NCBI GenBank assembly: GCA_035948415.1
Contig: DASZJD010000009.1
Span: 1-64,000, forward strand
From: Acidimicrobiia bacterium
GTDB taxonomy: Bacteria > Actinomycetota > Acidimicrobiia > IMCC26256 > PALSA-555
Direction of reading: 5' to 3'
DNA length: 64,000 nt
Part shown: positions 24,112-45,834 of the stretch, piece after piece
Layout: every line of letters starts with the position of its first letter
Numbering within the stretch: the first letter of the stretch is position 1
Notes under the pieces: generated by a model
Told to the model about the DNA's origin: nothing
Seen by the model: the letters and a program-made list of their open reading frames with translations, nothing else
Databases searched by the model: none
Program-made: the position numbers and the translations under genes

Positions 24112-27018
24112 TCAGTCGCTGATGCCGAGGTAGGTCGACGCGAGCCGCTCCTCGTCGGCCTCTTCGCGCGAACCGACCCAGACGATCCGACCCAACGCCA
24201 TGAACGCCACGACGTCGGCCAGTGCCATCACCTCGTGGGCCTTTTCCTCGACGAGCATGATCGCCGCTCCGAGTTCGCGGAGCTCCCGCAACGCCCGGAT
24301 GACCTCCTGGGCGGCGAGCGGCGCGAGCCCCAGCGTGGGCTCGTCGGCGATGAAGACCTTCGGCGGACGAGCCAGCGCCGGCGCCAGGCTAAGCATCTGC
24401 TGCTCGCCGCCCGAGAGCAGCCCGGCCGTTTGGCGTCGCCGCTCGCCGAGGATCGGAAAGCGGGCATAGGCGATCTCGCGCTCCTCCCCTCCCCGCAGCA
24501 GCATGCGTAAGTTCTCCTCGACGGTGAGGTCCGGGAAGATCCCCCGCGCCTCAGGGACCAGGAGGAGCCCGCGCCGTTCCCGTTCGTGCGGCGCGAGCTC
24601 CGTGACATCCTCGCCCGCGATGAGCACCCGGCCCTCGGTCGGGGTGACCAGGCCCGACGCGACCGAGCACAGCGTCGACTTGCCGGCGCCGTTGGCGCCG
24701 AGCAGCGCGAGGACCGAGTGCTCGGACACGGTGACGTCGACGCCGTGCAAGACCTCGGCGCCGCCGTAACCGGCGACCACACCCTCGATCGTCAGGGGGG
24801 CGGACGAGCCGGCTGGTGTTGGAGACTGTCGCGTGACGGACGCCGTCGGCTCGGCGGAGGGCGCGGGCTCGGCGTGCAGCTGCTCCTCGGCGACGCCAAT
24901 CCGGGCCTTCCGTTCACGGTTGACGCGCCGCTCAAGGCGCTGGTGCCCGACGAGCGCGAGCAGCCCATCGGGGTTCTGGGCGAGGTTGATCGCCCCAAGC
25001 CCGAACAAGATCGGGACGAAGGTCGACGCGGTGGTCAGCTCGCCGAACGCGCCGGTCAAGAAGTCGTGGCCGATCCAGGTGAAGATCACGGCGGTCCCGG
25101 TGTACGACAAGCCGGCGAGCAGCGCCCCGCCGGGCCGGCGGACCCCGAACACCACCGCCACCGCAAGCCAGATCAGCCCGGTCAGCGGCACCGCGTTGGT
25201 GTTCGTCGCGGCGCCGTTGACCATGCCGAGCATGACACCACCGAGACCCGCGATTCCGGCCGACACCGCGAAGATCAGCACCTTCGTCCGCTCCGGGGAC
25301 ATCCCGGACGTGCGGGCCGCGACCTCGCTGCTCCGCACGGCGAGCATCGCCCGTCCCGACGCGGAGCGGAGGAGGCTGTGGATGACGAGGGTGGCCAGCC
25401 CGAACAGCACGAGCATGAGGACGATCTGCTCGGACGGCTTGGAGAAGTCGAGGTGATTCGTCGCGCCGGGCACCAGCAGCCGGTTGAGCCAGTTCAGACC
25501 CGGGATGTCGAGGGATGGCGCGTTGATCGTCCATCCGAACGAGCCGTGGCTGATGGCTTCGGTTCCGAACGGGACGAGCGCGGCGAAGAACGCGAACGCG
25601 AACGTCGCCAACGCAAGCGCGACAGCCCCCAGGCGCAGCACTGGGAGCGCGATGAGCGCCCCGAGCGTCGCGGCCACGAGGATCGCGACCACCGCCGCAA
25701 AAAGGAAGTTCAGATGGCCGTGACGAGCGACGAACGGCGCGTTGATTCCCCAGTCGCGGTTCAGAGCCCACCCGGCCGCGAACCCTCCCGCGGTCACGAA
25801 GGTCGCCTGCGCCAGGCTCACCATGCCACCCAGCCCCGTCACGACCACGAAGGAGAGGAAGATCAGGCCAAAGACGAGGCCCTTGGCGATGATGCTCTGC
25901 TCGTAGGTGTCGGCCTGGAGCCACGATGCGTTGAACCATTGGAGGGAGAACGCGGCGAGCACCAACACGGCGACGGCCCACGGGAGCCGTCGACGCCACC
26001 GTGGGAGACCCGATCGATGGTCCCGCGGAGGGGCCTGGTCGGCAGCGACGCCCGCCTCTCGTCGTCGGTCGCGGGCGACGAAGTAGAGGATGATCAAGGT
26101 GAGCAGGAACGGAATCGAGCTTCGGAAGCCGCTCAGCCGATTGAGGAAGCCCGGGAGGAAGCTGTCGCCATAGCCGGCGACGAGGTCCTGAACGACGCCG
26201 AGTCCGAGCCCGGCCGCGAACGCGATGGGGATCGACCGCAGACCTCCCGCGGCGACCGCGCCCAGCGACCCGAACACCACGAGCGTGAAGATCGTCGAGT
26301 CGAGCTGGAACAACGGCGCGATCAGGACGCCGCCGAGGCCCGCGAGCAGCATCGTCAAGATCCACGCGGTGGCCGACGCCCGACCTGGGTTCACGCCGCG
26401 TAGGGAGGCGAGACTGGGCCGGTCGACAACCGCGCGCATCTCGAGGCCGACGCGGGTTCGTCGGACGACGTACCAGAGGACGAAGGCCGCGACCGCGGCG
26501 GCGGCGAACACCGCCAGTTGGTCGCTGTCGAGGTGGACGCTGCGGAGTCCGAGCCAGCCGAATCGGAACACGCGCGGGGGCGCAGGTCCGATCCCGGGGG
26601 CGATGCCACCGGTGGAGCTCGTGTCGGACACCTTCGGAAGCGTGAGTCCGAGCACGGTGTCGCCGAGGGTCTCGACGAGCCAGATGGCCAGGTTCGGCAG
26701 TGCGACCAGCAGGCCGATCGTCCCGACGATGCGCGCATAGACCGGCGCTGAGGCCAGGCGGCGCAACAGGATTCGGTCGAGCGACAAGCCCATGAGCGGG
26801 GCGAAGACCAGCACGGCGAGGATCGCAGCCGGGACGATGGGGATGTGCTGCCCGGAGTGCAGCTGGTAGTAGACGTACGCGGTCGTGAAGGCGACCGCGC
26901 CGTGCGCGAAGTTGAAGATGCCCGAGGTCTGGTAGGTGAGCACCAACCCGGACGCCATGATGGCGTAGATCCCGCCGGTGACCGTGCCGGACAGCAGCAG
27001 GTTCAGGAACTTCTGCAC
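24112..27018 (-). CDS. Branched-chain amino acid-type ABC importer, LivH-LivM-LivF fusion
   Basis: A 968-residue fusion of two permeases and one ATPase. Residues about 1-310 form a LivH permease (LNLLLSGTVTGGIYAIMASGLVLTY). About 330-680 form a LivM permease (GLGGMVSLAQATFVTAGGFAAG). After a Pro/Ala linker, about 725-968 form a LivF ATPase with Walker A GANGAGKST (774-782), signature LSGGEQQM, Walker B VFIADEPTLG. The switch region reads LVEEKAHE, the LivF-type variant. The SBP and LivG genes lie immediately upstream on the same strand, completing an importer for branched-chain amino acids or related acids/amides. The reading frame is continuous, so the fusion is seen directly. Confidence 0.9.
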   Translation of the reverse strand: MQKFLNLLLSGTVTGGIYAIMASGLVLTYQTSGIFNFAHGAVAFTTAYVYYQLHSGQHIPIVPAAILAVLVFAPLMGLSLDRILLRRLASAPVYARIVGTIGLLVALPNLAIWLVETLGDTVLGLTLPKVSDTSSTGGIAPGIGPAPPRVFRFGWLGLRSVHLDSDQLAVFAAAAVAAFVLWYVVRRTRVGLEMRAVVDRPSLASLRGVNPGRASATAWILTMLLAGLGGVLIAPLFQLDSTIFTLVVFGSLGAVAAGGLRSIPIAFAAGLGLGVVQDLVAGYGDSFLPGFLNRLSGFRSSIPFLLTLIILYFVARDRRREAGVAADQAPPRDHRSGLPRWRRRLPWAVAVLVLAAFSLQWFNASWLQADTYEQSIIAKGLVFGLIFLSFVVVTGLGGMVSLAQATFVTAGGFAAGWALNRDWGINAPFVARHGHLNFLFAAVVAILVAATLGALIALPVLRLGAVALALATFAFAFFAALVPFGTEAISHGSFGWTINAPSLDIPGLNWLNRLLVPGATNHLDFSKPSEQIVLMLVLFGLATLVIHSLLRSASGRAMLAVRSSEVAARTSGMSPERTKVLIFAVSAGIAGLGGVMLGMVNGAATNTNAVPLTGLIWLAVAVVFGVRRPGGALLAGLSYTGTAVIFTWIGHDFLTGAFGELTTASTFVPILFGLGAINLAQNPDGLLALVGHQRLERRVNRERKARIGVAEEQLHAEPAPSAEPTASVTRQSPTPAGSSAPLTIEGVVAGYGGAEVLHGVDVTVSEHSVLALLGANGAGKSTLCSVASGLVTPTEGRVLIAGEDVTELAPHERERRGLLLVPEARGIFPDLTVEENLRMLLRGGEEREIAYARFPILGERRRQTAGLLSGGEQQMLSLAPALARPPKVFIADEPTLGLAPLAAQEVIRALRELRELGAAIMLVEEKAHEVMALADVVAFMALGRIVWVGSREEADEERLASTYLGISD

Positions 27019-27126
27019 CGGTGGCCTCTCATCACCGACATCGCCACGGCGAACTTCTCGGTGACGGCCTGGCGGTGGCGAGCGAGCGTCACCTCTCGCC
27101 CACCACCGCCTCGATCCGTCAGATGC

Positions 27127-28401
27127 CTAGTACTTGATCGTCTTACCGGTCTTGGAGTTGACGTCCTGGTAGCAGGCGTACGGCACCACGATGCTGTACT
27201 TCGTGCCGTCGCTCTGCGTCAGCAGACCGCACGGTGCACCCAGGGTCTGCGCCGCGGGGTACTTCGTGGGTCCGACAATCCCGGGGACCTGGTAGGTCAT
27301 GGATCCCATGGCTTTCGCGAGTCCCTCGGGCGTCAGGTTCTTGCCCGCCTTCTTCAGCGCGGCGACGAACGCGTCGGCCGAGAAGTACGCAGCCAAGACT
27401 GCCTGCGTGATCGGCGCAGATCCGGCGACGGCCTTGATGTCGCTCGTGATCCTCTGCATCGTCGCATTGGCCGTGTCCTCGGGCAGGTCGAACTGCGTGA
27501 AGACGGTCTCACCCTTGGCGGCCGAGACCAGACGCGGGTCGTACGTGACGGCGTTCGTGAGGAGGCCCTGGAACCCCGCTGCCAGCAAGCCGTTGGAGAG
27601 CTTGAGCACGTTGCCGTACGCCGTGGTCACGAACACGACGTCGGGCGGTTTGCCCGCGTTGCTCGTCATTAGAGCGTTGACGTACGGCGACACGTCGCCT
27701 GGCGGTGGGTTCGCGGGGACCGGGTTCTTCTGGTAGACGACCTTGAAGCCAGCGAGCTTGGCCTGCTCGCCGATCACGAGCGCACCGGTCTTGCCGGTGT
27801 CGAGGTCCTCAGCGATGACGGCCGCGGTCTTCCCCTTGGCCCCACCTGGACTGCCGTGTGCCTTGAAATACGCGCTGGCGAGCGCACCCCAGGTCGTCCC
27901 GGTGGTCGGGATCGACGGCGGCGGAACGATGCAGCCGGTGAAGCCAAACGCGTAGGGGTTCTTGCAGAACCCGGCGTCGATACCCCAGCCGAAGAACGGC
28001 ACGTGCTGCTGGGTGAGGAAGGTCGAGGCCTGCAAGACAGGCGTCAGGGTCGGCACGACCGCGAACACTTGATCCTGCTGGACGAGGCGCTGGGCCTCGG
28101 TCAGGTCGGTGTTCGGATCGCTCTTGTCGTTGGCGGTCTCGACGTAGTTGATCTTGCGCCCGAAGACGCCACCTTTGTTGTTCTCGACCTGGAACCGTGC
28201 CGTGGTACCGATCTTTAGCTCGTCGGCTGTGAAGTTCGGTCCCGCGCCGATCCCCGCAACATTGATCGATGTTGCGGTCACACCTCGGGCATCGGTCTGG
28301 GACCGTGCCCCGGCAGTCTCGGTGGCCACGATTCCGGTCGACGCGAATGCGCCGACCACCGCGGCCACCGCACTAGCGGCAACCCACCTTCTTCGTTTCA
28401 C
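27127..28401 (-). CDS. ABC-type branched-chain amino acid substrate-binding protein (LivK-like)
   Basis: A 424-residue Peripla_BP_6-type receptor with a signal peptide (RRRWVAASAVAAVVGAFASTGIV) and no lipobox. The mature domain begins near ADELKIGTTARFQVENNKGG, the usual N-lobe start. Cysteines at FCKNPYAFGFTGC, APCGLL and YACYQ may form disulfides. GTG 28401 has a GGGGGAA SD. It lies between LivG and LivHMF on the minus strand with gaps of about 47 and 108 nt, so it is the receptor of that importer. Ligand could be an amino acid, amide or aromatic acid; not determinable here. Confidence 0.88.
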   Translation of the reverse strand: MKRRRWVAASAVAAVVGAFASTGIVATETAGARSQTDARGVTATSINVAGIGAGPNFTADELKIGTTARFQVENNKGGVFGRKINYVETANDKSDPNTDLTEAQRLVQQDQVFAVVPTLTPVLQASTFLTQQHVPFFGWGIDAGFCKNPYAFGFTGCIVPPPSIPTTGTTWGALASAYFKAHGSPGGAKGKTAAVIAEDLDTGKTGALVIGEQAKLAGFKVVYQKNPVPANPPPGDVSPYVNALMTSNAGKPPDVVFVTTAYGNVLKLSNGLLAAGFQGLLTNAVTYDPRLVSAAKGETVFTQFDLPEDTANATMQRITSDIKAVAGSAPITQAVLAAYFSADAFVAALKKAGKNLTPEGLAKAMGSMTYQVPGIVGPTKYPAAQTLGAPCGLLTQSDGTKYSIVVPYACYQDVNSKTGKTIKY

Positions 28402-28448
28402 CGGTTCCCCCTTGTTGGTATCTCATTGCAGAACTTTTGGTGCTCGCC

Positions 28449-29267
28449 TCAGTCGTCACCCAGGTAGGCGGCACGGACCGCCGGGTTCGCCCGGATCTGC
28501 TCGGGCCGGCCCTCCGCGAGCAGTTCTCCCAGATGCATCACCACGATGCGGTCGCATTGGCGCATCACGAACCCGACGTCGTGCTCGACCAGCAAGACGG
28601 CGCACGATTCGTGGGCCCGGATGTCCTGGATTCGCTCGCCGAGGCGTGCGGCTTCGGTCTCGTCCAATCCAGACGTGGGCTCGTCGAGGAGCAACACCCG
28701 AGGGGCGTCCACGATGGCTCTCGCCAGCTCCACCATGCGCCCGAGCCCGATGGGCAGCGACCCTGCGGTTTCGTGCCGGACGGGCGTCAGGCCGCAGAGG
28801 TCGGTGACATGCGCGACGCGGGCCCGTCGCTCCTTCTCCCGCGTCAACCGCGTCGGGAAGGAGACGAGATCGGCTGCGAGGCCGCCCCCGCCGCTGCGCC
28901 ATTCGAGCGCGGCGAGGACGTTGTCTTCCACACTGAGCCATCCAAACGTCTGCACCCGCTGGAACGTGCGCCGCAGCCCGAGCCGGGCTCGACGCACCGC
29001 GGAGAGCCCGGTGATCTCGCGACCGTCGAGCTCGACTCGACCCGCGTCGGGGAGCCGGATTCCGGAGATGACATCGAAGAGCGTTGTCTTCCCAGCGCCG
29101 TTGGGGCCGATCAGGCCCCGGACCTCGCCGGCGTCGAGACGCAGGCTCACCTCCTGCAGCGCGGTGATGCCTCCGAAGCGGACGGTGATGTCGGAGAGCG
29201 CTAACGCGGGGTGGGATTCACTCCCATCACGATGCGTCGTATCGATCGCGCCCTGCACGGTCGTCAC
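28449..29267 (-). CDS. ABC transporter ATP-binding protein (LivG-like)
   Basis: A 272-residue ATPase with Walker A GPNGAGKTT, a divergent signature (LPIGLGRMVELARAI replacing LSGGQ), Walker B VLLLDEPTSG, D-loop SGLDE and H-loop LLVEHDV, all characteristic of LivG. It energises the neighbouring LivHMF permease fusion with the LivF domain as partner. GTG 29267 is chosen because GGGGGAG lies 8 nt upstream and the ABC domain begins soon after. The frame stays open to an SD-preceded ATG at 29582, whose extra 105 residues are not ABC-like. Confidence 0.85.
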   Translation of the reverse strand: MTTVQGAIDTTHRDGSESHPALALSDITVRFGGITALQEVSLRLDAGEVRGLIGPNGAGKTTLFDVISGIRLPDAGRVELDGREITGLSAVRRARLGLRRTFQRVQTFGWLSVEDNVLAALEWRSGGGGLAADLVSFPTRLTREKERRARVAHVTDLCGLTPVRHETAGSLPIGLGRMVELARAIVDAPRVLLLDEPTSGLDETEAARLGERIQDIRAHESCAVLLVEHDVGFVMRQCDRIVVMHLGELLAEGRPEQIRANPAVRAAYLGDD

Positions 29268-29846
29268 GCCCGGCACTCCCCCTGTCGCGCGATCTGACGG
29301 TATATCAGCCCATGGCGTCCGGGAGCGTTCACTCCCGTCCGGCCCCATCACGAAACGGCAGGTCAGCGCCCATCGCGCCGGGCACAGACGGACCGGCGCG
29401 GGCTCAGAAAAGAAGATCGCGTCGACCCTCTTGCCGTCGCCCATGTCCTTGCCCCTTTGCCCCGGCCGTGTTGCCCTGCCGGCGTAGAAGCAGCCCCGCG
29501 ACAGCGATGGCGCCGTCTTGGTGGTGGCCGGGGTCGCGAGCACCGCCAAGATCCCAGCAACGGTGACGCCAAGGCTCTTCATTGCTCGACCCCCATTTGA
29601 CGGGGTGACGCTCGTACGGCGTGTTCGAGCGGGCCCTGGCTACCTACGGGCCGACGACCATGCCTCGGGGCATTCCGCTGCCGGCTGAATCCAGCAGAGC
29701 GGCGCCGGGGGCGCGCCATCGGCACCCACGTGCCTCGGGAGCCGCCTGGTGGTGGGGCGATCGTCTCTGTGCTGTGGGGACGCCTACCGAAGCCACAACC
29801 GGGACGGGGCAGTCAAGCGCCGAGGACGAGACGCCGACCTACTGAC
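29268..29846. other. Long region without an assigned gene
   Basis: This 579-bp stretch separates livG from the next gene. On the minus strand the livG frame remains open to an ATG at 29582 that has a GGGGG SD and encodes a hydrophobic start (MKSLGVTVAGILAVLAT), which may be a remnant of a secreted protein or an alternative start. No repeats, RNA genes or clear promoter were identified. Confidence 0.4.
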
Positions 29847-33903: not shown

Positions 33904-34022
33904 ACGGCCGCGTCCGAGCCCGACGTGGTCCGCACCGACCGCCGGCTGGCACACCGGCGCGGCGGCGGTCAGGATCGGAGTCCCGCCAGCCGCGGCTGGG
34001 GGCCCACGAAGGAGGGCGGTCG

Positions 34023-34940
34023 GTGGAGGTGCTGCGAACCCCCGACGAGCGCTTCGCGCGCCTCCCGGACTTCCCGTTCGAGCCCCGCTACGTCGACGTC
34101 CCGGACGGAAGCGGTGGCTCGCTGCGGGTGCACTACATCGACGAGGGACCGCGCCGCACGCCGCCGGTCCTCCTGATGCACGGCGAGCCGTCGTGGTCGT
34201 TCCTCTACCGGAAGATGATCCCCGTCCTCGTGGAAGCGGGCCTTCGCGCCGTCGCCCCCGACCTGGTCGGCTGCGGCCGGTCCGACAAGCCGGTGTCCCG
34301 CGACGACTACACGTACCAGCGCCATGTCGACTGGATGGCGGCGTTCCTCGAGTCGGTGGACCTGACCGGTGCGACGCTCGTGGGTCAGGACTGGGGCGGG
34401 CTGATCGGCCTCCGTCTCGTCGCCGAGCAGCCCGAGCGCTTCGCTCGGGTGGTGGCCGCCAACACGTTCCTCCCGACGGGCGAACGCGACCCGGGGGATG
34501 CCTTCCGCGCCTGGCAGCGGTTCTCGCAGGAGACGCCGGTGTTCGATGTCGGGCGGATCGTGAACCGCGGCTGCACGACCGACCTGGACGCCGAGGTGAT
34601 CGCCGCCTACGACGCGCCGTTCCCGAGCGAGGAGTTCAAGGCCGGGGTCCGACAGTTCCCCCTCCTCGTGCCCACGACCCCGGACGATCCGGCTTCGCTC
34701 GCGAACCGTCGGGCCTGGTCCGCGCTGCGCGCGTGGACCAAGCCCTTCCTCACCGCCTTCAGCGACCAGGACCCGGTCACCGCCGGCGCCGACCGCGTGC
34801 TCCGAGCCGAGATCCCGGGCTGTCAGGGCCAGCCGCACACGACCATCGAAGGCGCGGGTCACTTCCTCCAGGAGGACCGCGGCGAGCAGCTCGCTGCGGT
34901 CGTGGCGGCATTCGTCGGCATGCCGCCCGACGCCGCCTGA
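34023..34940 (+). CDS. Haloalkane dehalogenase-like alpha/beta hydrolase
   Basis: A 305-residue protein with the full haloalkane dehalogenase set: oxyanion motif HGEPSW (H53), nucleophile D123 followed by the halide-binding W124 (VGQDWGG), catalytic acid D250 in FSDQDPVT, and base H280 in GAGHFLQED. The arrangement matches subfamily HLD-I (DhlA/DhmA-like), which releases halide from haloalkanes to give alcohols. GTG 34023 has AAGGAGGG at 34009-34015. It lies 35 nt upstream of a four-domain Liv importer that has its own promoter box. Epoxide or fluoroacetate hydrolase relatives are possible alternatives. Confidence 0.85.
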   Translation: MEVLRTPDERFARLPDFPFEPRYVDVPDGSGGSLRVHYIDEGPRRTPPVLLMHGEPSWSFLYRKMIPVLVEAGLRAVAPDLVGCGRSDKPVSRDDYTYQRHVDWMAAFLESVDLTGATLVGQDWGGLIGLRLVAEQPERFARVVAANTFLPTGERDPGDAFRAWQRFSQETPVFDVGRIVNRGCTTDLDAEVIAAYDAPFPSEEFKAGVRQFPLLVPTTPDDPASLANRRAWSALRAWTKPFLTAFSDQDPVTAGADRVLRAEIPGCQGQPHTTIEGAGHFLQEDRGEQLAAVVAAFVGMPPDAA

Positions 34941-34975: not shown

Positions 34976-37900
34976 GTGATCGCGGCCCGCCGAGTTGGTC
35001 CCGCGATCCTCGCGATCGTGATCGACGCCGCCGTCGGGCGGTACCTCCCGGGCGGCGTGGTGGTGCGAGGCGCGGTCGTCGTGCTGCTGGCGATCGTGGC
35101 GCTGGCCCTGGCGCCGCGCCGTTGGGATCCGGTGATCGTCGGGCTGGCGGTGGTGGCGTTCGCGACCGCGGCGTGGCACGTGCCCGGCGGCGTCCTGGTG
35201 CAGGGCATGATCATCGGCGCGCTGACGTCGCTGCTGGCGTTGGGCCTGGCGCTGGTCTGGCGGGCCAACCGGGTCATCAACTTCGCCGCCGGAGACCTCG
35301 GGGCCGTGCCGGCCACGCTCGCCGTGCTCTTGACCATCAGCACCGTGGCCGCGAGCTGGTGGCTGGCCCTCGCCGCCGGGCTCGTGATGGCGCTGGTCGT
35401 CGGCGCGGCGGTCGAGCTGCTCCTGGTCCGGCGGTTCGCGAGGTCGCCACGGCTCGTGCTCAGCGTGGCCACGATCGGGATCGCCCAGGTCCTGGCGGCC
35501 GGCTCCCTCCTCCTCCCGCGCTACTTCACGGTCCGGACCGGCACGATCCCGCAGCCCTTCAACCTGCACCTGACGATCGACCCGATCGTGTTCGGCGGCG
35601 CCGACATCGTCGCGGTCGCCACCGTGCCGCTCGTCCTCGTCGGGCTGGCCCTCTTCCTGCGGCGCAGCGACGTCGGGATCGCCGTCCGCGCCGGGGCCGA
35701 CCGGGCCGACCGGGCCGCGTCGCTCGGCGTCCCCATCCGCCGGCTCCAGACCGTGGTCTGGGTCCTGGCCGCGGTGCTCGGGTTCCTCGCCGTGTTCCTC
35801 CGGTCGTCGATCCTCGGCCCGCCGATCGGGCAGGTCCCGGCGGGCGGCATCGGGCCGGCGGTGCTCGGGCCGGCGCTGCTCCTGCGGGCGCTCGCCGCGG
35901 CCGTCGTCGGGCGTATGGAGCGGCTCCCCACCGTGGTCGGCGCCGCGGTGGTGCTCGGCATCGTCGAGCAGTCGGTCGTGTGGCACTGGCACGAGCAGGC
36001 GTACGTCGACCCGGTGCTGTTCATCATCGTCGTCGTGGGCGTCCTGGCGACCGGCGGGACGTCGATCGGGCGCGTCCGCGAGGGAGAGGTCTCGACGTGG
36101 CAGGCCGCCCGCGAGGTCCGCCCGGTCCCGCGCGAGCTCCGTCGCCTGCCCGAGGTGCGCGTCGCGAGGGCGGTGCTCGCGGTCGGCGTCGCCGCCCTGC
36201 TCCTGGCCGTGCCCGCGTTCCTCTCCGCCAGCAAGCTGGGCCTGGCCGCGGCGATCCTCATCTTCGGCATCATCGGCGTGTCCCTCGTGGTGCTCACCGG
36301 CTGGGCCGGTCAGGTGAGCCTCGGCCAGGTCGCGTTCGTCGGGATCGGCGCCGCGGTCTCGGGCGCGATCACGGCGCGGCTCGGGTGGGATCTCGCGTTC
36401 GGGCTGCTCCTGGCCGGTCTCGTCGGCGCCGCCGTCGCCGTGGTGGTGGGCCTGCCCGCGATCCGCCGGCGCGGACTGACCCTGGCCGTCACCTCGCTCG
36501 CGTTCGCGCTCATGACGTCCGACTACCTCTTGAACCGAACCTTCTTCGGCGAGGGCACGACGATCAACTGGCTGCCGGCGACCCGGATCACCCGTCCGCC
36601 CCTGTTCGGGGCGATCGCCATCGACACCGACACTCGCTTCTACTACCTCTGCCTGGTCGGGCTCGCGGTCGCGGTCGCGATGGCGTACGGGGTTCGGCGG
36701 AGCCGCACCGGGCGGGCGATCATCGCCATGCGCGAGAACGAGCGGGCGGCCGAGGCGTTCGGAGTGAGCGTCCGCCGCCTCACCGTCTTCGCCCTGGCGT
36801 TCTCGGGGTTCCTCGCCGCGTTCGCGGGCGCGCTCTTCGTGTACCAGCAGTCGGGCCTGGATCCGAGCCCCTACCAGCCGGCGGCCAGCCTCGAGGTCTT
36901 CGCGATGACCGTCATCGGCGGGCTGGGATCCATCCCGGGCGCGGTGATCGGCGCCACGTACGTGCGCGGCGTCGACTACTTCCTGGCGTCGCAGTGGCAG
37001 ATCCTGGCGACTGGGGTGGGCCTGCTCGCGGTCCTGCTCGTCCTGCCTGGGGGTCTCGGCGCCGCCCTCGCCGACGCCCGCGACGCCCTGCTCCGTCGCG
37101 TCGCCGCCCGCCGCTCGCTCGCCATCGGCTCGTTCACCGACGAGACCCCGGAGGTGGGCGACGCGCCCCCGGCGGCGGCGGGGCTCGCCGCCGCGCCCCG
37201 CCGCGACGACCGCCGGCTCCGACTCGTCGTCGACGCCGTCGACGTCCGCTATGACGGCGTCCAGGTGCTGTTCGGCGCGCACCTCGAGGTCGCGGCCGGC
37301 GAGATCGTCGCCCTGCTCGGCACCAACGGCGCTGGGAAGTCCACGCTCGTGCGGGCCGCGGCCGGCCTCGTCCCGTGCGACCACGGCGAGGTGCGGCTGG
37401 ACGGCGAGGACCTGACCCGGCTGCGCGCCGATCAGATCGCGCATCGCGGCGTGGCAACCATGCCGGGCGGCGCCGCGACGTTCCCGTCCCTCACCGTCGC
37501 CGAGCATCTGCGGCTCGCGGCCTGGACCTTGCGGCACCGACCCGACGAGGCGCGCGCGGCGCGGGCCGCGGCCCTCGACCACTTTCCGATGTTGCGAGAG
37601 CGCCTGGCGGAGACCGCGGGGAACCTCAGCGGTGGCCAGCAGCAGATGCTGGCGCTGGCGATGGCGCTGGTCGGCTCGCCGCGCGTCCTGCTCATCGACG
37701 AGCTGTCGCTCGGGCTGGCGCCGGCGGTGGTGGCGTCGCTGCTCGACGTCGTCCGGGCCGTCGCCGCGGCCGGCACCGCCGTCGTGATCGTCGAGCAGTC
37801 GGCCGAGCTGGCCCTCTCGTTCGCCGACCGAGCCTCGTTCATGGAGAAGGGCCGCATCCGCTTCGAGGGGCCGTGCGACGAGCTGCGCGGCCGGCCCGAC

Positions 37901-38815
37901 CTGCTCCGGTCGGTGTTCCTCGCCGGCATCTCGGTCACGGGCGTCGCCGCTCGCGCCGCCGCGCCGGCGGCGCCCCGCGACGGGCACCGCCTCGAGGTGC
38001 GAGGGCTCACGAAGCACTTCGGCGGCATCGTCGCCCTCGACGACGTCTCCTTCACGGTCGAGCCGGCCGAGGTCGTCGGGATCCTCGGGCCGAACGGCGC
38101 CGGCAAGACCACCCTCTTCGACGTCGTCAGCGGGTTCGAGCGACCGGAGCACGGGTCGGTCGCGCTCGTCGCCGCCGACGGGCGTCGCGTCGACCTGGTC
38201 CACCGCAGCCCGTCGGGTCGCGCCCGCGAGGGCCTCGGGCGCTCCTTCCAGGACGCCCGCCTGTTCCCGGCCCTCACCGTCGCCGAGACGATCGCGGTGG
38301 CGCTCGAGGATTCGATCGAGGTACGCGATCCCGTCGCCGCCGCGCTGTGGCTGCCCGCCGTGGCCACCTCCGAGCGCGACGCCCGTGATCGGGTCGACGA
38401 GCTCCTCGAGCTGTTCCGCCTCGGGGGCTTCGCCGACAAGTTCGTGCGCGAGCTCTCGACCGGCAGCCGACGGATCGTGGATCTGGCCGCCGTCGCGGCG
38501 CAGCACCCCGACGTCCTGCTGCTCGACGAGCCCTCGAGCGGCATCGCGCAGAAGGAAGCCGACGAGCTCGCGCCCCTCCTGCTCCGGGTCCGCGACGACC
38601 TCGGCGCCAGCCTCGTGGTCATCGAGCACGACCTGCCCTTCCTGCGTCGGGTGGCGAGCCGTTGGGTCGCCCTCGACCTCGGCGCGGTCATCGCCACCGG
38701 CAGCCCCGACGAGGTGACGGCCGATCCGGCGGTCGTCGCCGCGTACCTCGGCCGCGACCGGGGCCAGACCCGCGACCCCGAGCCGATCTCGACCGACCGA
38801 GGCCCGGAGCGGTGA
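34976..38815 (+). CDS. Four-domain ABC importer: LivH-LivM-LivF-LivG single-chain fusion
   Basis: A 1,279-residue protein. Order: N-terminal extension with two hydrophobic segments (1-70); LivH permease (about 73-360, RANRVINFAAGDLG); LivM permease (about 400-690, GWAGQVSLGQVAFVGIG); LivF ATPase (about 750-985: Walker A GTNGAGKST at 782-790, signature LSGGQQQ, Walker B VLLIDELSLG, switch VIVEQS); LivG ATPase (about 1,000-1,260: Walker A GPNGAGKTT near 1,038, signature LSTGSRR, Walker B VLLLDEPSSG, H-loop IEHD). The whole import machine except the receptor is one chain, with one copy of each module. The receptor is probably the anchored SBP at 39183. The frame is uninterrupted. A long open frame on the opposite strand is a shadow. 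Confidence 0.92.
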   Translation: MIAARRVGPAILAIVIDAAVGRYLPGGVVVRGAVVVLLAIVALALAPRRWDPVIVGLAVVAFATAAWHVPGGVLVQGMIIGALTSLLALGLALVWRANRVINFAAGDLGAVPATLAVLLTISTVAASWWLALAAGLVMALVVGAAVELLLVRRFARSPRLVLSVATIGIAQVLAAGSLLLPRYFTVRTGTIPQPFNLHLTIDPIVFGGADIVAVATVPLVLVGLALFLRRSDVGIAVRAGADRADRAASLGVPIRRLQTVVWVLAAVLGFLAVFLRSSILGPPIGQVPAGGIGPAVLGPALLLRALAAAVVGRMERLPTVVGAAVVLGIVEQSVVWHWHEQAYVDPVLFIIVVVGVLATGGTSIGRVREGEVSTWQAAREVRPVPRELRRLPEVRVARAVLAVGVAALLLAVPAFLSASKLGLAAAILIFGIIGVSLVVLTGWAGQVSLGQVAFVGIGAAVSGAITARLGWDLAFGLLLAGLVGAAVAVVVGLPAIRRRGLTLAVTSLAFALMTSDYLLNRTFFGEGTTINWLPATRITRPPLFGAIAIDTDTRFYYLCLVGLAVAVAMAYGVRRSRTGRAIIAMRENERAAEAFGVSVRRLTVFALAFSGFLAAFAGALFVYQQSGLDPSPYQPAASLEVFAMTVIGGLGSIPGAVIGATYVRGVDYFLASQWQILATGVGLLAVLLVLPGGLGAALADARDALLRRVAARRSLAIGSFTDETPEVGDAPPAAAGLAAAPRRDDRRLRLVVDAVDVRYDGVQVLFGAHLEVAAGEIVALLGTNGAGKSTLVRAAAGLVPCDHGEVRLDGEDLTRLRADQIAHRGVATMPGGAATFPSLTVAEHLRLAAWTLRHRPDEARAARAAALDHFPMLRERLAETAGNLSGGQQQMLALAMALVGSPRVLLIDELSLGLAPAVVASLLDVVRAVAAAGTAVVIVEQSAELALSFADRASFMEKGRIRFEGPCDELRGRPDLLRSVFLAGISVTGVAARAAAPAAPRDGHRLEVRGLTKHFGGIVALDDVSFTVEPAEVVGILGPNGAGKTTLFDVVSGFERPEHGSVALVAADGRRVDLVHRSPSGRAREGLGRSFQDARLFPALTVAETIAVALEDSIEVRDPVAAALWLPAVATSERDARDRVDELLELFRLGGFADKFVRELSTGSRRIVDLAAVAAQHPDVLLLDEPSSGIAQKEADELAPLLLRVRDDLGASLVVIEHDLPFLRRVASRWVALDLGAVIATGSPDEVTADPAVVAAYLGRDRGQTRDPEPISTDRGPER

Positions 38816-38986: not shown

Positions 38987-39190
38987 ATGAACGAACTGCA
39001 GCCGGACCGGCCGCGGGTGACGGCGTCCATCGTCGCCCGCCGCGGCGGGGCTCCCGCACCTCCGGGCGCCTGGAAGCGGCCGCCGACGCCGGACCCACGC
39101 CGCCCCGACCGTTCCGGCGCGGTGACCCGCCTCGCCCCGCGCCCGGCCCGGGACGCGACGCCGGCCGACCCCTCGCGCCGCCGTGGCTGA
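38987..39190 (+). CDS. Doubtful 67-residue ORF overlapping the SBP start
   Basis: From ATG 38987 a Pro/Arg-rich frame runs to a TGA that overlaps the first 8 nt of the SBP gene. There is no SD and no recognisable domain. If translated it could couple translation to the SBP; it may equally be a chance frame in GC-rich DNA. Confidence 0.2.
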   Translation: MNELQPDRPRVTASIVARRGGAPAPPGAWKRPPTPDPRRPDRSGAVTRLAPRPARDATPADPSRRRG

Positions 39191-40880
39191 GGCGCGCCGA
39201 CGGGGGGGCCCGTCCCGGCGCACCATCCTGACCCGGTACCTGCCGATCGTCGCGGTGGTCGCCGTGATCGGGATCGTCGCCGCGGTGGTCAGCAGCGGCG
39301 GCGGGGGCGGGAAGTCGACGACGACGACCGCTCCGACCAAGGGCCTGCCCCTGACGTTCGACGAGGCCCAGGCACGCGGCGTGCACGTGAACTGGGGGCC
39401 GAAGTGCGACACGAGCACCGGCCGGGTGGCCGTCCCGCTGTCGTACGCGCCGCCGTGCATCCAGCCGCGGAACGGCGGCAACAACGGCGGCGCGACGGCG
39501 CCCGGCGTGACCGCGGACACGATCACGATCGCCCTCTACCAGTCGCAGCCCGACCCGTTGGCGGAGGCGGCGCTCCAGCAGAGCGGCAGCGACGAGAGCC
39601 TGGCCGCCGAGGCGCGCACCGTGCAGGCGTATGTCGACTTCTTCCAGTCGCACTACGAGACCTACGGCCGCCGGATCCGCGTCGTCCCGATCCGGGCCAG
39701 CGGCACGCCCGACGACGACGTCTCGGCCAAGGCCGACGCCGACCGGGTGGCGAACGAGGTGCACGCGTTCGCGTCGTTCGGGGGACCGAGCCTGACCAGC
39801 GCCTACGCCGACGAGCTGGCGTCGAAGGGCGTCCTCTGCCTCGGCGAGTGCGTGCTCGCCGAGACGAGCTCGTTCCTCCAGTCGCGCGCCCCCTACGTGT
39901 GGCCGTCCCTCGCCGCGCCGGACCAGGCCGCCCTCCCCTGGGCCCAGTTCGTGACCAGCCAGCTCAGCGGCCGCCCCGCCGCCCACGCCGGCGACCCGAA
40001 GCTCCGCGCCCAGCGGCGGGTCTTCGGCGACGTGCGCTTCGACGACGGCACCGGGATCTTCGACGCGACGTACAAGCAGTTCGCCCACACGCTGGCCGCG
40101 AAGCACACGAAGATCGCGGTGGACCTCAAGTACCAGCTCGACCTCACCCAGGCCCAGGCGATCTCGCGGACGCTCATCGCGTCGCTGAAGACGGCCCACG
40201 TGACCACCGTGTTCGTGGCCGCCGACCCGGTCTTCCCCCAGTTCCTCACCAAGGAGGCGACCGCCCAGGGCTACTTCCCGGAGTGGGTCGTGCTCGGCTA
40301 CGCGTACACCGACACCGCCGTGTTCGGCCGCCAGTACGACCAGCGGCAGTGGGCCCACGCCTTCGGCGTCTCGCTGCTCCCGGCCCGCACCGACGACTCC
40401 GTCGACCAGCTGGCCACCATCTTGAGCTGGCAGACGGGCCGCCCGCCCGAAGCGAAGACGTTCCGGGTCCTCGTCCAGGCGCCCCTGATCTTCTTCACGG
40501 GCGTGCACCTGGCCGGGCCGCACCTCACCGCGGCCAGCTTCCGCGACGGCCTCTTCCGCTATCCCGCCACCCGGCCGCTCGTGCCGACGCTGCTGCACAC
40601 GTCGTGGGGCCGCCACGGGATCTGGCCCGGCACCGACTACACGTGGGGCGACGACCTCACCGTGATCTGGTGGGACCCGAACGTCAGCGGCCCGGACGAG
40701 GTCGGCAACCAGGGTCGCGGGCTCTACCGCTACGCGCTCGCCGGCCGCCGCTACCTCCCCGGGCAGTGGCCAGCCGACGTCGGCCTCTTCGACGTGGGGC
40801 ACTCGATCACGGTGCTCCACGCCCTCAGCGGCGACGAGCGTCCGCCGAGCTACCCGTCGCCAGCCTCAGGGACCCGCTGA
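39183..40880 (+). CDS. Membrane-anchored ABC-type substrate-binding protein
   Basis: A 565-residue SBP: basic N-terminus, one TM (about 18-40, YLPIVAVVAVIGIVAAVVSS), a Gly/Ser/Thr linker, then an enlarged type I periplasmic-binding domain (starts near TADTITIALYQSQPDPL). It has paired cysteines (CDTS/PPCIQP and LCLGEC). There is no lipobox, so it stays tethered by its N-terminus. The domain is about 100 residues longer than usual LivK. It lies about 370 bp downstream of the LivHMFG fusion on the same strand and is the best candidate receptor. GTG 39183 lacks an SD. Its 3' end overlaps the convergent acetyltransferase gene by 31 bp. Confidence 0.82.
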   Translation: MAEARRRGGPSRRTILTRYLPIVAVVAVIGIVAAVVSSGGGGGKSTTTTAPTKGLPLTFDEAQARGVHVNWGPKCDTSTGRVAVPLSYAPPCIQPRNGGNNGGATAPGVTADTITIALYQSQPDPLAEAALQQSGSDESLAAEARTVQAYVDFFQSHYETYGRRIRVVPIRASGTPDDDVSAKADADRVANEVHAFASFGGPSLTSAYADELASKGVLCLGECVLAETSSFLQSRAPYVWPSLAAPDQAALPWAQFVTSQLSGRPAAHAGDPKLRAQRRVFGDVRFDDGTGIFDATYKQFAHTLAAKHTKIAVDLKYQLDLTQAQAISRTLIASLKTAHVTTVFVAADPVFPQFLTKEATAQGYFPEWVVLGYAYTDTAVFGRQYDQRQWAHAFGVSLLPARTDDSVDQLATILSWQTGRPPEAKTFRVLVQAPLIFFTGVHLAGPHLTAASFRDGLFRYPATRPLVPTLLHTSWGRHGIWPGTDYTWGDDLTVIWWDPNVSGPDEVGNQGRGLYRYALAGRRYLPGQWPADVGLFDVGHSITVLHALSGDERPPSYPSPASGTR

Positions 40881-41724: not shown

Positions 41725-41806
41725 GGCGGCCGGTCCGCTCGGGCCGCGCGGTCCCTTGTCGGGAGCGCCGCGCCCGGGCAGGATGCTCGCGAACCGGAGG
41801 GGGGCG

Positions 41807-42382
41807 ATGGCGGCATCGGCACCGGTCAGGGCCGGCGTCTCGACGACCACGAAGCTGCTGGTCATCCTGGTGGCGGGCGCCGCGGTGTCGGTGGCGCTCG
41901 GCGTCTACGCCAACGAGCACACCGCCACCGGGGAGCGGCCGTACACCCTCTTCTTCAGCGGGACCATCCAGCTCAAGGTCTGGTTCGCGACCGCAGCCGT
42001 GGCGCTGGCGTGCGTACAGCTGCTCCTCGCCGCCCGGCTCTACGACAAGATCTCGATCCCCCGCCGCGCCCCGGCGTGGCTCGGCGACGCGCACCGCCTC
42101 GTCGGCACGTTCACGTTCGCGCTGACGCTGCCGGTCGCCTACGCGTGTCTGTGGGCGCTGGGCTTCCAGTCGGGCAGCACCCGGGTGCTGCTCCACGGCC
42201 TCCTCGGCTGCGTCTTCTACGGGGCCTTCGCCGTCAAGGTGCTCGTCGTCCGGACCCGCGGGCTGCCAGGCTGGGCCATCCCGGTGGCCGGCGGGCTCCT
42301 GTTCGCCGCGCTCGTCGGGCTCTTCCTGACCAGCAGCGTCTGGTTCTTCACGTCGTCGTCCGCGGCCCGGCCGATGTTCTGA
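41807..42382 (+). CDS. DUF6529-like integral membrane protein
   Basis: A 191-residue protein with about four or five TM segments (KLLVILVAGAAVSVALGVYA; LKVWFATAAVALACVQLLLA; LVGTFTFALTLPVAYACLWAL; HGLLGCVFYGAFAVKVLVV; VAGGLLFAALVGLFLTSSVWFF). Conserved His (DAHRLVG, LLHGLLG) face what could be a heme- or quinone-like site. I associate it with the DUF6529 family, which occurs next to c-type cytochromes in actinobacteria; that match is from memory. ATG 41807 has GGAGG 6 nt upstream. The cytochrome c gene starts 1 nt after its stop, so the two almost certainly work together in electron transfer. Confidence 0.7.
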   Translation: MAASAPVRAGVSTTTKLLVILVAGAAVSVALGVYANEHTATGERPYTLFFSGTIQLKVWFATAAVALACVQLLLAARLYDKISIPRRAPAWLGDAHRLVGTFTFALTLPVAYACLWALGFQSGSTRVLLHGLLGCVFYGAFAVKVLVVRTRGLPGWAIPVAGGLLFAALVGLFLTSSVWFFTSSSAARPMF

Positions 42383-42383
42383 C

Positions 42384-42725
42384 GTGTTCCGCTGGGTCGT
42401 CAACGCCGCCGAGACGCTCGCCGCCGTGGGGGTCGTCGTGGTCGTGGTCTTCCTGTTCGCCAACGAGCCCGGCACGGCCAGCGCGGGCTCGCCGGGGGCG
42501 CGCATCTTCCAGGCCGACTGCGCCAGCTGCCACGGCGCCAGCGGGGAGGGGGTCGTCGGGCCCCGGCTGGCCGGTGGCGTGGTCGTCCGCCGCTTCCCGA
42601 ACGAGGCCGACCAGATCGCCTTCGTCGCCGCCGGGCGAGGCGCGATGCCCGCCTTCGGGGCAACCCTCAGCCCGGTCGAGCTCCGGCAGGTCGTCGACTA
42701 CACGCGCACGGGGCTCGGCAAGTAG
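42384..42725 (+). CDS. Membrane-anchored c-type cytochrome
   Basis: A 113-residue class I cytochrome c: N-terminal TM anchor (about 9-26), then heme-binding C46-A-S-C49-H50 and the distal ligand M88 in GAMPAFG. The heme domain is short, like cbb3-type or alcohol-dehydrogenase-associated cytochromes. The GTG start lies 1 nt after the stop of the DUF6529-like gene, and the next GTG follows its TAG directly. Together they form a compact redox operon. The oxidase or dehydrogenase partner is not in the window. Confidence 0.88.
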   Translation: MFRWVVNAAETLAAVGVVVVVVFLFANEPGTASAGSPGARIFQADCASCHGASGEGVVGPRLAGGVVVRRFPNEADQIAFVAAGRGAMPAFGATLSPVELRQVVDYTRTGLGK

Positions 42726-43775
42726 GTGTTCGCGCCGGCGCCGATCCGCATCGGGTTGCTCTTCGACTTCCCGCAGCGCGACGGCGGTGACGACTTCGAG
42801 GCGTCCCTGCGACGCGGCGTCGATGAGGTCGCCGGCGAGGGTCGCCTCGACCGCGACGTCGAGTTCCTGCGGGTCGAGGCGACCGGCCTGCCGATCGGCA
42901 CCGAGCACGCCCTCGTCGGCGGGTTCCGCGACCTGGACGCCGCCGGCTGCCTGGCGGTCGTCGGCCCCTCGATCAGCGACAACGGCCTCGTGGTCGCCCC
43001 GCTGGCCGACGCCGCCGGCCTCTCGTGCCTCAACTACACCGGCGGCGAGCGCACCCGGGGCCGCTGCGGCTTCCACTACCAGGTGGGGTCGCTCGAGGAG
43101 GAGCCGGTCGTGCTGGCCCAGCGGCTGGCGGCACGGGGCCTGCGGCGCCCGGCGGTCGTCTTCGACCGCTCGCCGGTGGGACGCCGCTACGCCGAGTGCT
43201 TCGACGCCGCCACGACCGGCGCCGGGCTCGAGCTGGCCGGGACGGCCGGCATCTCCCCGGTCGCCGAGCAGGTCACCGCGACCCTCGAGCGACTGCGCGC
43301 GCTCGAGCCCGACGCCCTCGTGTACCTCGGGCTCGGCGTGTCGTCCCATCCGGTGGCGGTCGGGCTCGCCGAGCTGGCCTGGGGCGTCCCGGTCGTCGCC
43401 AACTCGGCCCTGCTGTTCGGCTACCTCCGACCCGACTGGCGCGACGCCTGGGCGGGCTGGGAGTACGTGGACGTGGTCGCCGACGACAACGAGCGCCGGC
43501 GCCAGCTCGCCGCCCGGGCCTCCGCGGCCGCCGCCGGGCCGATGGGCTGCGCCGCCCTCGACATGGGCCGGCTCGTCGCCGAGGCGGTCGTGCGCGCCGA
43601 CCACCTGACGCGCGCCGGGCTCCGCGACGGCTTCGAGCGGGTGAAGCGCCTCCCCGCCACCTGCGGGCGGGACGGCACGACGATGGGCTTCGGGCACTTC
43701 GACCACGGGGCCCTGCACGGCGACTACCTCGTGCTCCGCACCTGGGACGGCGGCCGGAGCGTCCAGGTCGACTAG
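42726..43775 (+). CDS. SBP-fold (Peripla_BP_6-like) protein without a signal peptide
   Basis: A 349-residue protein with the type I periplasmic-binding fold from its very start (IRIGLLFDFPQRDGGDDFEASLRRGVDE), and family landmarks CLAVVGPSISDNGL and VFDRSPVGRRYAECF. There is no signal peptide, TM or lipobox, so it is predicted cytosolic unless the true start lies upstream, which the tight packing (GTG directly after the cytochrome TAG) argues against. Cytosolic SBP-fold proteins can act as ligand sensors, as AmiC does. Its operon with a cytochrome c and a DUF6529-like protein is unusual. Ligand unknown. Confidence 0.75.
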   Translation: MFAPAPIRIGLLFDFPQRDGGDDFEASLRRGVDEVAGEGRLDRDVEFLRVEATGLPIGTEHALVGGFRDLDAAGCLAVVGPSISDNGLVVAPLADAAGLSCLNYTGGERTRGRCGFHYQVGSLEEEPVVLAQRLAARGLRRPAVVFDRSPVGRRYAECFDAATTGAGLELAGTAGISPVAEQVTATLERLRALEPDALVYLGLGVSSHPVAVGLAELAWGVPVVANSALLFGYLRPDWRDAWAGWEYVDVVADDNERRRQLAARASAAAAGPMGCAALDMGRLVAEAVVRADHLTRAGLRDGFERVKRLPATCGRDGTTMGFGHFDHGALHGDYLVLRTWDGGRSVQVD

Positions 43776-44051: not shown

Positions 44052-44906
44052 TCAGGCCGACTTCCGCGACCGGGGGGCGCGCTTCTTCGCCGGCGCGCCC
44101 CGCTCGGCCCCGGCGGCCGCCGCCTCGGGCGCCCCGGCTCGGGCCAGGCTCGCCTCCAGCGCCGCCATGAGGTCGACGACCTTGCCCGGCTCCTCGACCG
44201 TCGGCTCGGCCACGATCTCCTCGCCGGCGGCCTTCCGCCGGATGACCTCCAGGAGCTGCTCCCGGTACTCGTCGTGATACCGCTCGGGCTCGAAGTGGCC
44301 CGACAGGGCCTCGATGAGCTGGCGGGCCATCGCCACCTCGCGCTCGCTCGGGTCCGCCGGCGCCGCGTCCTCGGGGATCAGCCCGCTGCGCGCCTGCACC
44401 TCGTCGGCGTAGCGCATGGTCTCGAGGCAGAGGATCCCGTCCAGCGGCCGGATGGCGACGAGGCTCTCCTTCGAGCGGATGACGACGCGGCCGATCGCCA
44501 CCTTGTGCAGCTCGCTCATCGCCTCCACGAGCAGCCGGTACGGCTTCAAGGCGGCGGCGTCGGGCGCCAGGTAGTAGGGCTGCTCGAAGTAGAGGGGGTC
44601 GATCTCCTCGAGGTCGACGAAGTCCTCGATCTCGATCATCCGGCTCGCCTTCGGGGCCAGCGCCCGCATCTCCTCGTCGTCCACGACCACGTACTGGCCC
44701 GGCGAGATCTCGTAGCCCTTGCGGATCCGCTCGTTCGGCACCTCGTCGCCCGTCGCCTCCGACACCTTCCGGTAGCGGATGCGGGCGTTCGTCCCGTCCT
44801 CGAGCTGGTTGAACCGCACGTCCTGGCTCTTGGTGGCCGAGACCACCCGAACCGGGACCGCGACGAGCCCGAAGCTGATGCTGCCTGTCCAGATCGCGCT
44901 TGGCAC
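44052..44906 (-). CDS. ku: Ku protein (bacterial NHEJ)
   Basis: A 284-residue bacterial Ku. The N-terminus (IWTGSISFGLVAVPVRVVSAT) and central motifs (IEIEDFVDLEEIDPLYFEQPYYLAP) are characteristic. The C-terminal tail is Ala/Lys/Arg-rich (AKKRAPRSRKSA), as in Ku proteins that recruit LigD and bind DNA. Ku homodimers thread onto broken DNA ends for non-homologous end joining. GTG 44906 is 19 nt from the divergent polymerase-domain start, and the promoters overlap. No ligase domain is present in the window. Confidence 0.95.
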   Translation of the reverse strand: MPSAIWTGSISFGLVAVPVRVVSATKSQDVRFNQLEDGTNARIRYRKVSEATGDEVPNERIRKGYEISPGQYVVVDDEEMRALAPKASRMIEIEDFVDLEEIDPLYFEQPYYLAPDAAALKPYRLLVEAMSELHKVAIGRVVIRSKESLVAIRPLDGILCLETMRYADEVQARSGLIPEDAAPADPSEREVAMARQLIEALSGHFEPERYHDEYREQLLEVIRRKAAGEEIVAEPTVEEPGKVVDLMAALEASLARAGAPEAAAAGAERGAPAKKRAPRSRKSA

Positions 44907-44911
44907 CCCAC

Positions 44912-44918
44912 TAGGTTC
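44912..44918. promoter_or_regulatory. Overlapping divergent leaderless -10 boxes of ku and ligD-pol
   Basis: TAGGTT (44912-44917) ends 8 nt before GTG 44926 on the plus strand. GAACCT (complement of 44913-44918) ends 6 nt before GTG 44906 on the minus strand. The whole intergenic space is 19 bp and neither gene has an SD, so both transcripts are probably leaderless and the two promoters must compete. Confidence 0.45.
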
Positions 44919-44925
44919 GCAGAGC

Positions 44926-45834
44926 GTGCCGGCCGGATCCAAAGCGGTCATCGACGTGGCGGGCCGCCGGCTGACCCTCTCGAACCTGGAGAAGGTCCTC
45001 TACCCGGCGGCGGGGTTCACGAAGGCGGGGGTGATCGACTACTACGTCCGGGTCGCGCCGACGATGCTCCCCCACCTGGCCGGCCGGGCCGTCACCATGG
45101 TCCGCTTCCCCAACGGCGTCGACGGCGGGTCCTTCTTCGAGAAGCGCTGCCCGTCCCACGCCCCGGCCTGGGTCCGCCGAGCCCCCTCGGAGGGGGACCT
45201 CGTGGCCTGCGTCGTCGACGACGCGCCGACGCTGGTCTGGACCGCGAACCTGGCCGCGCTCGAGCTCCACACCCTCCAGGCCCGGGTCGACGACCCCGAC
45301 CATCCCACCTCCATGGTCTTCGACCTCGACCCCGGCCCCCCCGCCGACGTGCTGGCCTGCTGCCGGGTGGCGCTGGACCTCCGGGACACGCTCGAGCGCC
45401 TCGGGCTCGCGAGCGTGGTGAAGACGTCGGGGAACAAGGGCCTGCACCTCGCCGTGCCCGTCCGCGGCGCCACCGCCGACGCGACGAAGACCTTCGCCCG
45501 GAGCCTCGGCCAGCTCCTGGCGGCGCAGGCACCGGACCGCGTGACCGTGGTGATGGCGAAGGAGCAGCGGGCCAACCGGGTCTTCGTCGACTGGAGCCAG
45601 AACGACCGGCACAAGACCACCGTGTGCGCCTACTCCCTCCGGGCGCAGCCGCGGCCGATGGTGTCGACGCCGGTCGCCTGGGACGAGATCTCGGACGCCC
45701 TCGATCGCGGCGACCCGGCCGCGCTCAGCTTCGAGGCCCCCGACGTCCTGACCCGGATCGATCGGCTCGGCGACCCCTACGCCGCGAACCTCGACACCGA
45801 CCAGCCCCTCCCGAGGCCGGTCAGCAGCGAGTGA
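44926..45834 (+). CDS. LigD-type polymerase (PolDom) standalone protein
   Basis: A 302-residue archaeo-eukaryotic-primase-like polymerase domain as in LigD. Motifs: LTLSNLEKVLYP N-terminus, catalytic DLD (D133, D135) in VFDLDPGP, the KTSGNKGLHLAVPV segment and VDWSQN. It fills and templates ends during non-homologous end joining and can add ribonucleotides. It is separate from any ligase or nuclease domain, which are fused in many LigD proteins. Divergent from ku with 19 nt between them. An SDR gene overlaps its stop by 4 nt (GTGA). Confidence 0.92.
   Translation: MPAGSKAVIDVAGRRLTLSNLEKVLYPAAGFTKAGVIDYYVRVAPTMLPHLAGRAVTMVRFPNGVDGGSFFEKRCPSHAPAWVRRAPSEGDLVACVVDDAPTLVWTANLAALELHTLQARVDDPDHPTSMVFDLDPGPPADVLACCRVALDLRDTLERLGLASVVKTSGNKGLHLAVPVRGATADATKTFARSLGQLLAAQAPDRVTVVMAKEQRANRVFVDWSQNDRHKTTVCAYSLRAQPRPMVSTPVAWDEISDALDRGDPAALSFEAPDVLTRIDRLGDPYAANLDTDQPLPRPVSSE

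Follow-up and report, generated by a model that had tools for sequence, protein, structure and literature searches.

Structure of the locus and of the four-in-one chain

The window (the whole stretch of 64,000 nucleotides analysed here, from an Acidimicrobiia bacterium) carries a stop-free frame that runs from a GTG at 34976 to a TGA at 38815 and encodes 1,279 residues. As the sequence-only reading had proposed, its translation holds two permease and two ATPase domains in one uninterrupted frame: the Pfam families BPD_transp_2 and ABC_tran each match two stretches, with total scores of 175 and 197 bits, both permease stretches are above cut-off, and the C-terminal end matches the LivG-type domain BCA_ABC_TP_C. 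The proposed coordinates hold, and the proposed order LivH-LivM-LivF-LivG is borne out by the NCBIfam ranking of the two ATPases. Residues 750-983 score 288.8 bits with UrtE (cut-off 285.8) and also match LivF, and residues 1006-1260 match LivG as well as UrtD, the latter with 299.3 bits, below its equivalog cut-off of 304.1. The UrtE/LivF-type ATPase thus comes first and the UrtD/LivG-type second, giving the domain order H-M-F-G. The observation of a whole Liv-type importer in a single frame is therefore confirmed. The features of the locus are as follows.

34020..34940, + strand: haloalkane dehalogenase, 35 bp upstream of the four-in-one gene
34976..38815, + strand: four-in-one ABC importer chain H-M-F-G, 1,279 aa (translation, Pfam, NCBIfam, conservation)
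34976..35179, + strand: N-terminal segment (alignment with the same-genus homologue)
35180..36061, + strand: LivH-like permease domain (H), residues 69-362 (Pfam, domain profiles)
36194..37087, + strand: LivM-like permease domain (M), residues 407-704 (Pfam, domain profiles)
37088..37222, + strand: M-F linker, residues 705-749, resembling the tail of split H-M proteins and leading straight into F, without an MFS domain
37223..37933, + strand: LivF/UrtE-like ATPase (F), residues 750-986 (NCBIfam, motifs)
37934..37984, + strand: F-G linker
37985..38761, + strand: LivG/UrtD-like ATPase (G), residues 1004-1262 (NCBIfam, motifs)
39183..40880, + strand: substrate-binding protein (SBP), 565 aa, predicted N-terminal membrane anchor
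41756..42725, + strand: DUF6529 membrane protein and cytochrome c, also present downstream in the same-genus genome

The gene is least securely defined at its start codon. The N-terminal motif VTTARRFGPAVLAI of the window chain aligns with a matching VIAARRVGPAILAI at the start of the same-genus homologue, and after its first ~14 residues the window chain has some 46 mostly hydrophobic residues that are absent from this homologue and are possibly an additional membrane helix.

The SBP gene starts 367 bp downstream of the four-in-one gene, and the encoded protein begins with a basic segment followed by one hydrophobic stretch, in keeping with the anchored SBP previously placed about 370 bp away. 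A homologue of ~565 residues lies beside 58 of 61 cassettes (identities of 27-67%), and this linkage is the strongest evidence that the chain belongs to an importer; most of the cassette-linked SBPs that were read have an N-terminal hydrophobic anchor. The same-genus and same-family SBPs match Peripla_BP_6 weakly, and that of the window falls below the threshold.

Nothing observed here, the neighbours (dehalogenase, cytochrome c) included, supports a branched-chain amino acid (Leu, Ile or Val) as the ligand; the sequence-only reading had named only the importer type. The immediate surroundings of the four-in-one gene showed no urea genes. The haloalkane dehalogenase also neighbours the gene in the same-genus genome, and is missing from the other loci compared. 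The link of the DUF6529 protein and cytochrome c with the importer is one of association only. Right after the cytochrome c, a Peripla_BP_6 protein (42726-43775) in which neither a signal nor an anchor is obvious is possibly a cytoplasmic sensor. Further downstream (44052-45834), the 5' ends of divergent Ku (- strand) and LigD primase-polymerase (+ strand) ORFs overlap by 173 bp (44779-44951), and the start of one or the other may be called too early.

Conservation and distribution of the one-frame chain

The same-genus homologue is also encoded in one frame (1,218 residues, 75% identity), as is a full-length homologue in another genus of the same family (65% identity). Comparison with the same-genus homologue gave dN/dS values of about 0.17 (H), 0.13 (M), 0.30 (F) and 0.24 (G), showing purifying selection on all four domains. 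The two linkers evolve faster, with dN/dS of 0.58 and 0.88 and identities of 0.43 and 0.29.

Surveys of the order (58 genomes) and of the class Acidimicrobiia (395 genomes), checked with domain profiles built for this analysis, found one-frame H-M-F-G chains in at least 27 of the 395 class genomes, from 17 families, and at least 42 distinct sequences were gathered. A scan of named genomes added Pseudofrankia sp. BMG5.36 (L109), the one four-in-one source identified as an isolate; the other sources include MAGs. The fusion is thus shared by many independent assemblies and one isolate. A phylum sample added a single full chain from outside the class (G428), and a plasmid search yielded no full four-in-one chain. 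The earlier description of such chains as rare is to be narrowed: they recur in this class and are nearly absent from the other classes sampled.

MFS-bearing relatives and the origin of the four-in-one chain

Most close relatives of the window system are encoded by two genes, one for an H-M protein of ~720 aa and a second for a protein of ~1,000-1,090 aa in which a domain of ~400 residues precedes F-G; the stop of the first gene overlaps the start of the second by 4 nt in 19 of 20 split loci. This additional domain scores above the Pfam cut-off for MFS_1, whether it stands in MFS-F-G, in MFS-F or in the five-in-one chain. The scores are 118 bits for L186 and L110 and 66-71 bits for P0005 and P0006, which are divergent, and a motif-A-like loop, ADR..R.R, is retained by the majority of members. 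By Pfam and by comparison of the linkers, the window chain has no MFS domain.

The genome of the window also encodes a five-in-one paralogue, H-M-MFS-F-G, of 1,728 residues in one frame (contig C115, L039:6374-11560), the only such chain found among the genomes surveyed. Its middle insert had been a candidate binding protein, which was ruled out when Pfam identified it as the MFS domain. In a same-genus genome, the counterpart of this chain is split into H-M and MFS-F-G. The neighbours of the five-in-one gene encode an amidohydrolase, an alpha/beta hydrolase, an AMP-ligase and two binding proteins. In a more distant group, found in several genomes of the class, an [MFS-F] protein is accompanied either by [H-M-G] or by separate [H-M] and [G] (square brackets enclose one protein). 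The plasmid search brought up the same arrangement in Embleya sp. NBC_00888, an actinomycete outside the class, where a complete replicon of 5.7 Mb carries [MFS-LivF] and then [H-M-G] (L220, L221). The split, five-in-one and [MFS-F] groups together show that the MFS-LivF fusion is widespread in these actinobacteria. It is possible, though we hold it with considerable doubt, that the MFS-bearing parent group is a hybrid transporter in which a Liv-type ABC importer works jointly with an MFS permease in one chain; the MFS module might, for example, transport the importer's substrate, or a related compound, independently of ATP, or regulate the ATPases. If so, the four-in-one lineages would repeatedly have dropped a secondary transporter, and both families could be tested as separable modules.

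The window chain falls with those of G006, G005 and G018:C22 in all three trees, built from H-M, from F-G and from the concatenated domains. This group adjoins MFS-bearing split systems of the same order in the H-M tree and in the concatenated one, where the other large four-in-one clades lie farther away. The four-in-one state requires five changes on the concatenated tree, four of them forced by strong branches, and six when the outgroup is included. A single origin is rejected, since holding all four-in-one chains as one clade gave an AU p-value of 2e-53. When the tree is rooted with the [MFS-F][H-M-G] group as outgroup, the four-in-one state is derived and eight losses of the MFS domain are needed if regain is excluded. 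Formally, regain could still take the place of pure loss, and because some deep branches are weakly supported we speak of several losses rather than eight.

The linkers point in the same direction. Those of the four-in-one chains start with the tail of the split H-M proteins, which is VPSLLAD-like in many linkers and reads SFTDE in that of the window chain, and then pass directly into F; the helix that joins the MFS domain to F (W..AAAQ.E...R.QG.KLL), conserved in MFS-bearing forms, is gone. Because the H-M tail runs directly into F, excision of the MFS domain is indicated; as a physical event, we infer it. The ancestor would have been an operon [H-M][MFS-F-G] with genes overlapping by 4 nt, from which the whole MFS domain and the intervening stop would have been lost, joining the H-M tail in frame to F. 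Such a loss with joining would have occurred several times within the class. The domain termini at the joints would be cytoplasmic, and an MFS domain of ~12 helices could then be removed without a change in topology. An [H-M][F-G] pair without MFS (L112:5615-9645), in which the genes overlap by 4 nt, is possibly an intermediate state; since it is still unfused, loss and fusion can also be two steps. We consider the repeated loss of a fused MFS domain to be more interesting than the fusion alone.

The reverse course, in which the four-in-one chain is ancestral, gained an MFS domain by insertion between M and F (once or more) and was split afterwards, could make an insertion intermediate of the five-in-one chain and would fit the midpoint-rooted tree, where one four-in-one clade is basal. 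However, the outgroup [MFS-F][H-M-G] already has a homologous MFS domain before F, all these MFS domains are homologous and sit at the same position, their tree broadly tracks that of H-M, and the four-in-one linkers resemble H-M tails, all of which make insertion unlikely. The reading we favour, and hold to be quite probable, is that the window encodes a complete single-chain Liv/Urt (hydrophobic-amino-acid-type) ABC importer that was derived from [H-M][MFS-F-G] by repeated MFS loss.

The long frame might also be translated or processed into separate subunits, so that the fusion would be merely genetic. The variable linkers, with their low identity between the two same-genus chains, would suit this explanation, and their fast evolution leaves room for proteolytic processing. 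Internal starts, which the sequence-only reading had raised as an objection to its own proposal, are not frequent in the M-F linker: the sole in-frame start there is a GTG at 37154 without a convincing ribosome-binding site immediately upstream. As 42 sequences from several independent origins also retain the frame, we think separate subunits quite improbable. Independent assemblies from 17 families share the one-frame chain with the isolate, and all its domains are under selection, which leaves next to no room for an assembly or sequencing error that merged separate genes, even though the window comes from a draft genome of 133 contigs.

ATPase asymmetry, proposed working and comparison with known transporters

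The two ATPases of the window chain differ in their motifs. F has the Walker A sequence GTNGAGKST, the signature LSGGQ and a DE pair, with Gly as its Q-loop residue, where related Liv-type ATPases have Gln or Glu, and Gln as its switch residue. G has the Walker A sequence GPNGAGKTT, a Q-loop Gln, a switch His and the signature LSTGS. This asymmetry is conserved in both architectures, F carrying LSGG(E/Q) and G carrying LSTG(T/S)RR. The nucleotide-binding domains (NBDs) of ABC proteins dimerize head-to-tail, and such a dimer with these asymmetric motifs would have one canonical and one degenerate site.

An AlphaFold2 model of residues 68-1262 reached a pLDDT of 77.5 and a pTM of 0.74. Among the best PDB matches to the model are the fused ATPase pairs of M. 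tuberculosis DppABCD and OppABCD; the best matches listed include no solved Liv-type permease. We propose that H and M form the membrane pathway, with F and G pairing beneath it as a fixed heterodimer assembled in cis (Walker motifs, Gln Q-loop and His switch of G would face LSGGQ of F in the canonical ATP site, and F with its Gly Q-loop and Gln switch would face LSTGS/T of G in the degenerate site). The N-terminally anchored binding protein from the adjacent gene would deliver the substrate to the chain for transport.

The interpretation of a whole Liv-type importer in one chain is supported. Of the closest known systems, LivFGHM-J, the high-affinity branched-chain amino acid importer of the HAAT family, has the same two BPD_transp_2 and two ABC_tran domains, BCA_ABC_TP_C and a Peripla_BP_6-like SBP, the periplasmic-binding-protein type I partner expected of a HAAT-type importer. 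The window system differs from it in being one chain rather than four, in the Q-loop Gly of F and the LSTG(S/T) signature of G, and in its type of anchored 565-aa SBP, which Peripla_BP_6 matches weakly or not at all. In comparison with the urea importer UrtABCDE, its ATPases score best with UrtE (above cut-off) and UrtD (just below), and the window importer is fused. Like M. tuberculosis OppD/DppD and B. subtilis RbsA/NupO, the chain has a fused asymmetric ATPase pair, whereas in those systems only the ATPases are fused and the permeases are separate. Four-domain ABC exporters such as P-glycoprotein also unite all four core domains in one chain; these have an exporter fold, alternate as TMD-NBD-TMD-NBD and have no SBP, unlike the window chain with its order TMD-TMD-NBD-NBD. 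The extra domain of the relatives matches MFS_1 as MFS transporters do (PF07690), but is fused to an ABC ATPase.

It is unusual for an ABC importer to have its four domains in a single chain. A survey from 2024 described NBD fusion as relatively rare in prokaryotes and its purpose as unclear, and reported a degenerate site in B. subtilis fused NBD proteins (PMC11466899). None of the open-licence papers searched describes a Liv importer of the four-in-one kind or a fusion of MFS with Liv domains, an absence that is weak evidence, and automatically annotated databases may already contain these architectures. The orthologous series formed by [H-M-F-G], [H-M][MFS-F-G], [MFS-F][H-M-G], [H-M-MFS-F-G] and the MFS-less pair is well suited to asking how fusion affects assembly and stoichiometry, and why an MFS domain rides on an ABC ATPase, while a fixed chain would ease structural and mutational work on Liv-type importers.

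A second Liv system lies in the window on the - strand (24112-29582), with H-M-F fused in one chain of 968 aa; it also has an SBP of its own (27127-28401) and G as a separate protein (28449-29582). The same-genus genome has an H-M-F chain near its four-in-one gene too (L041:16859-19765).
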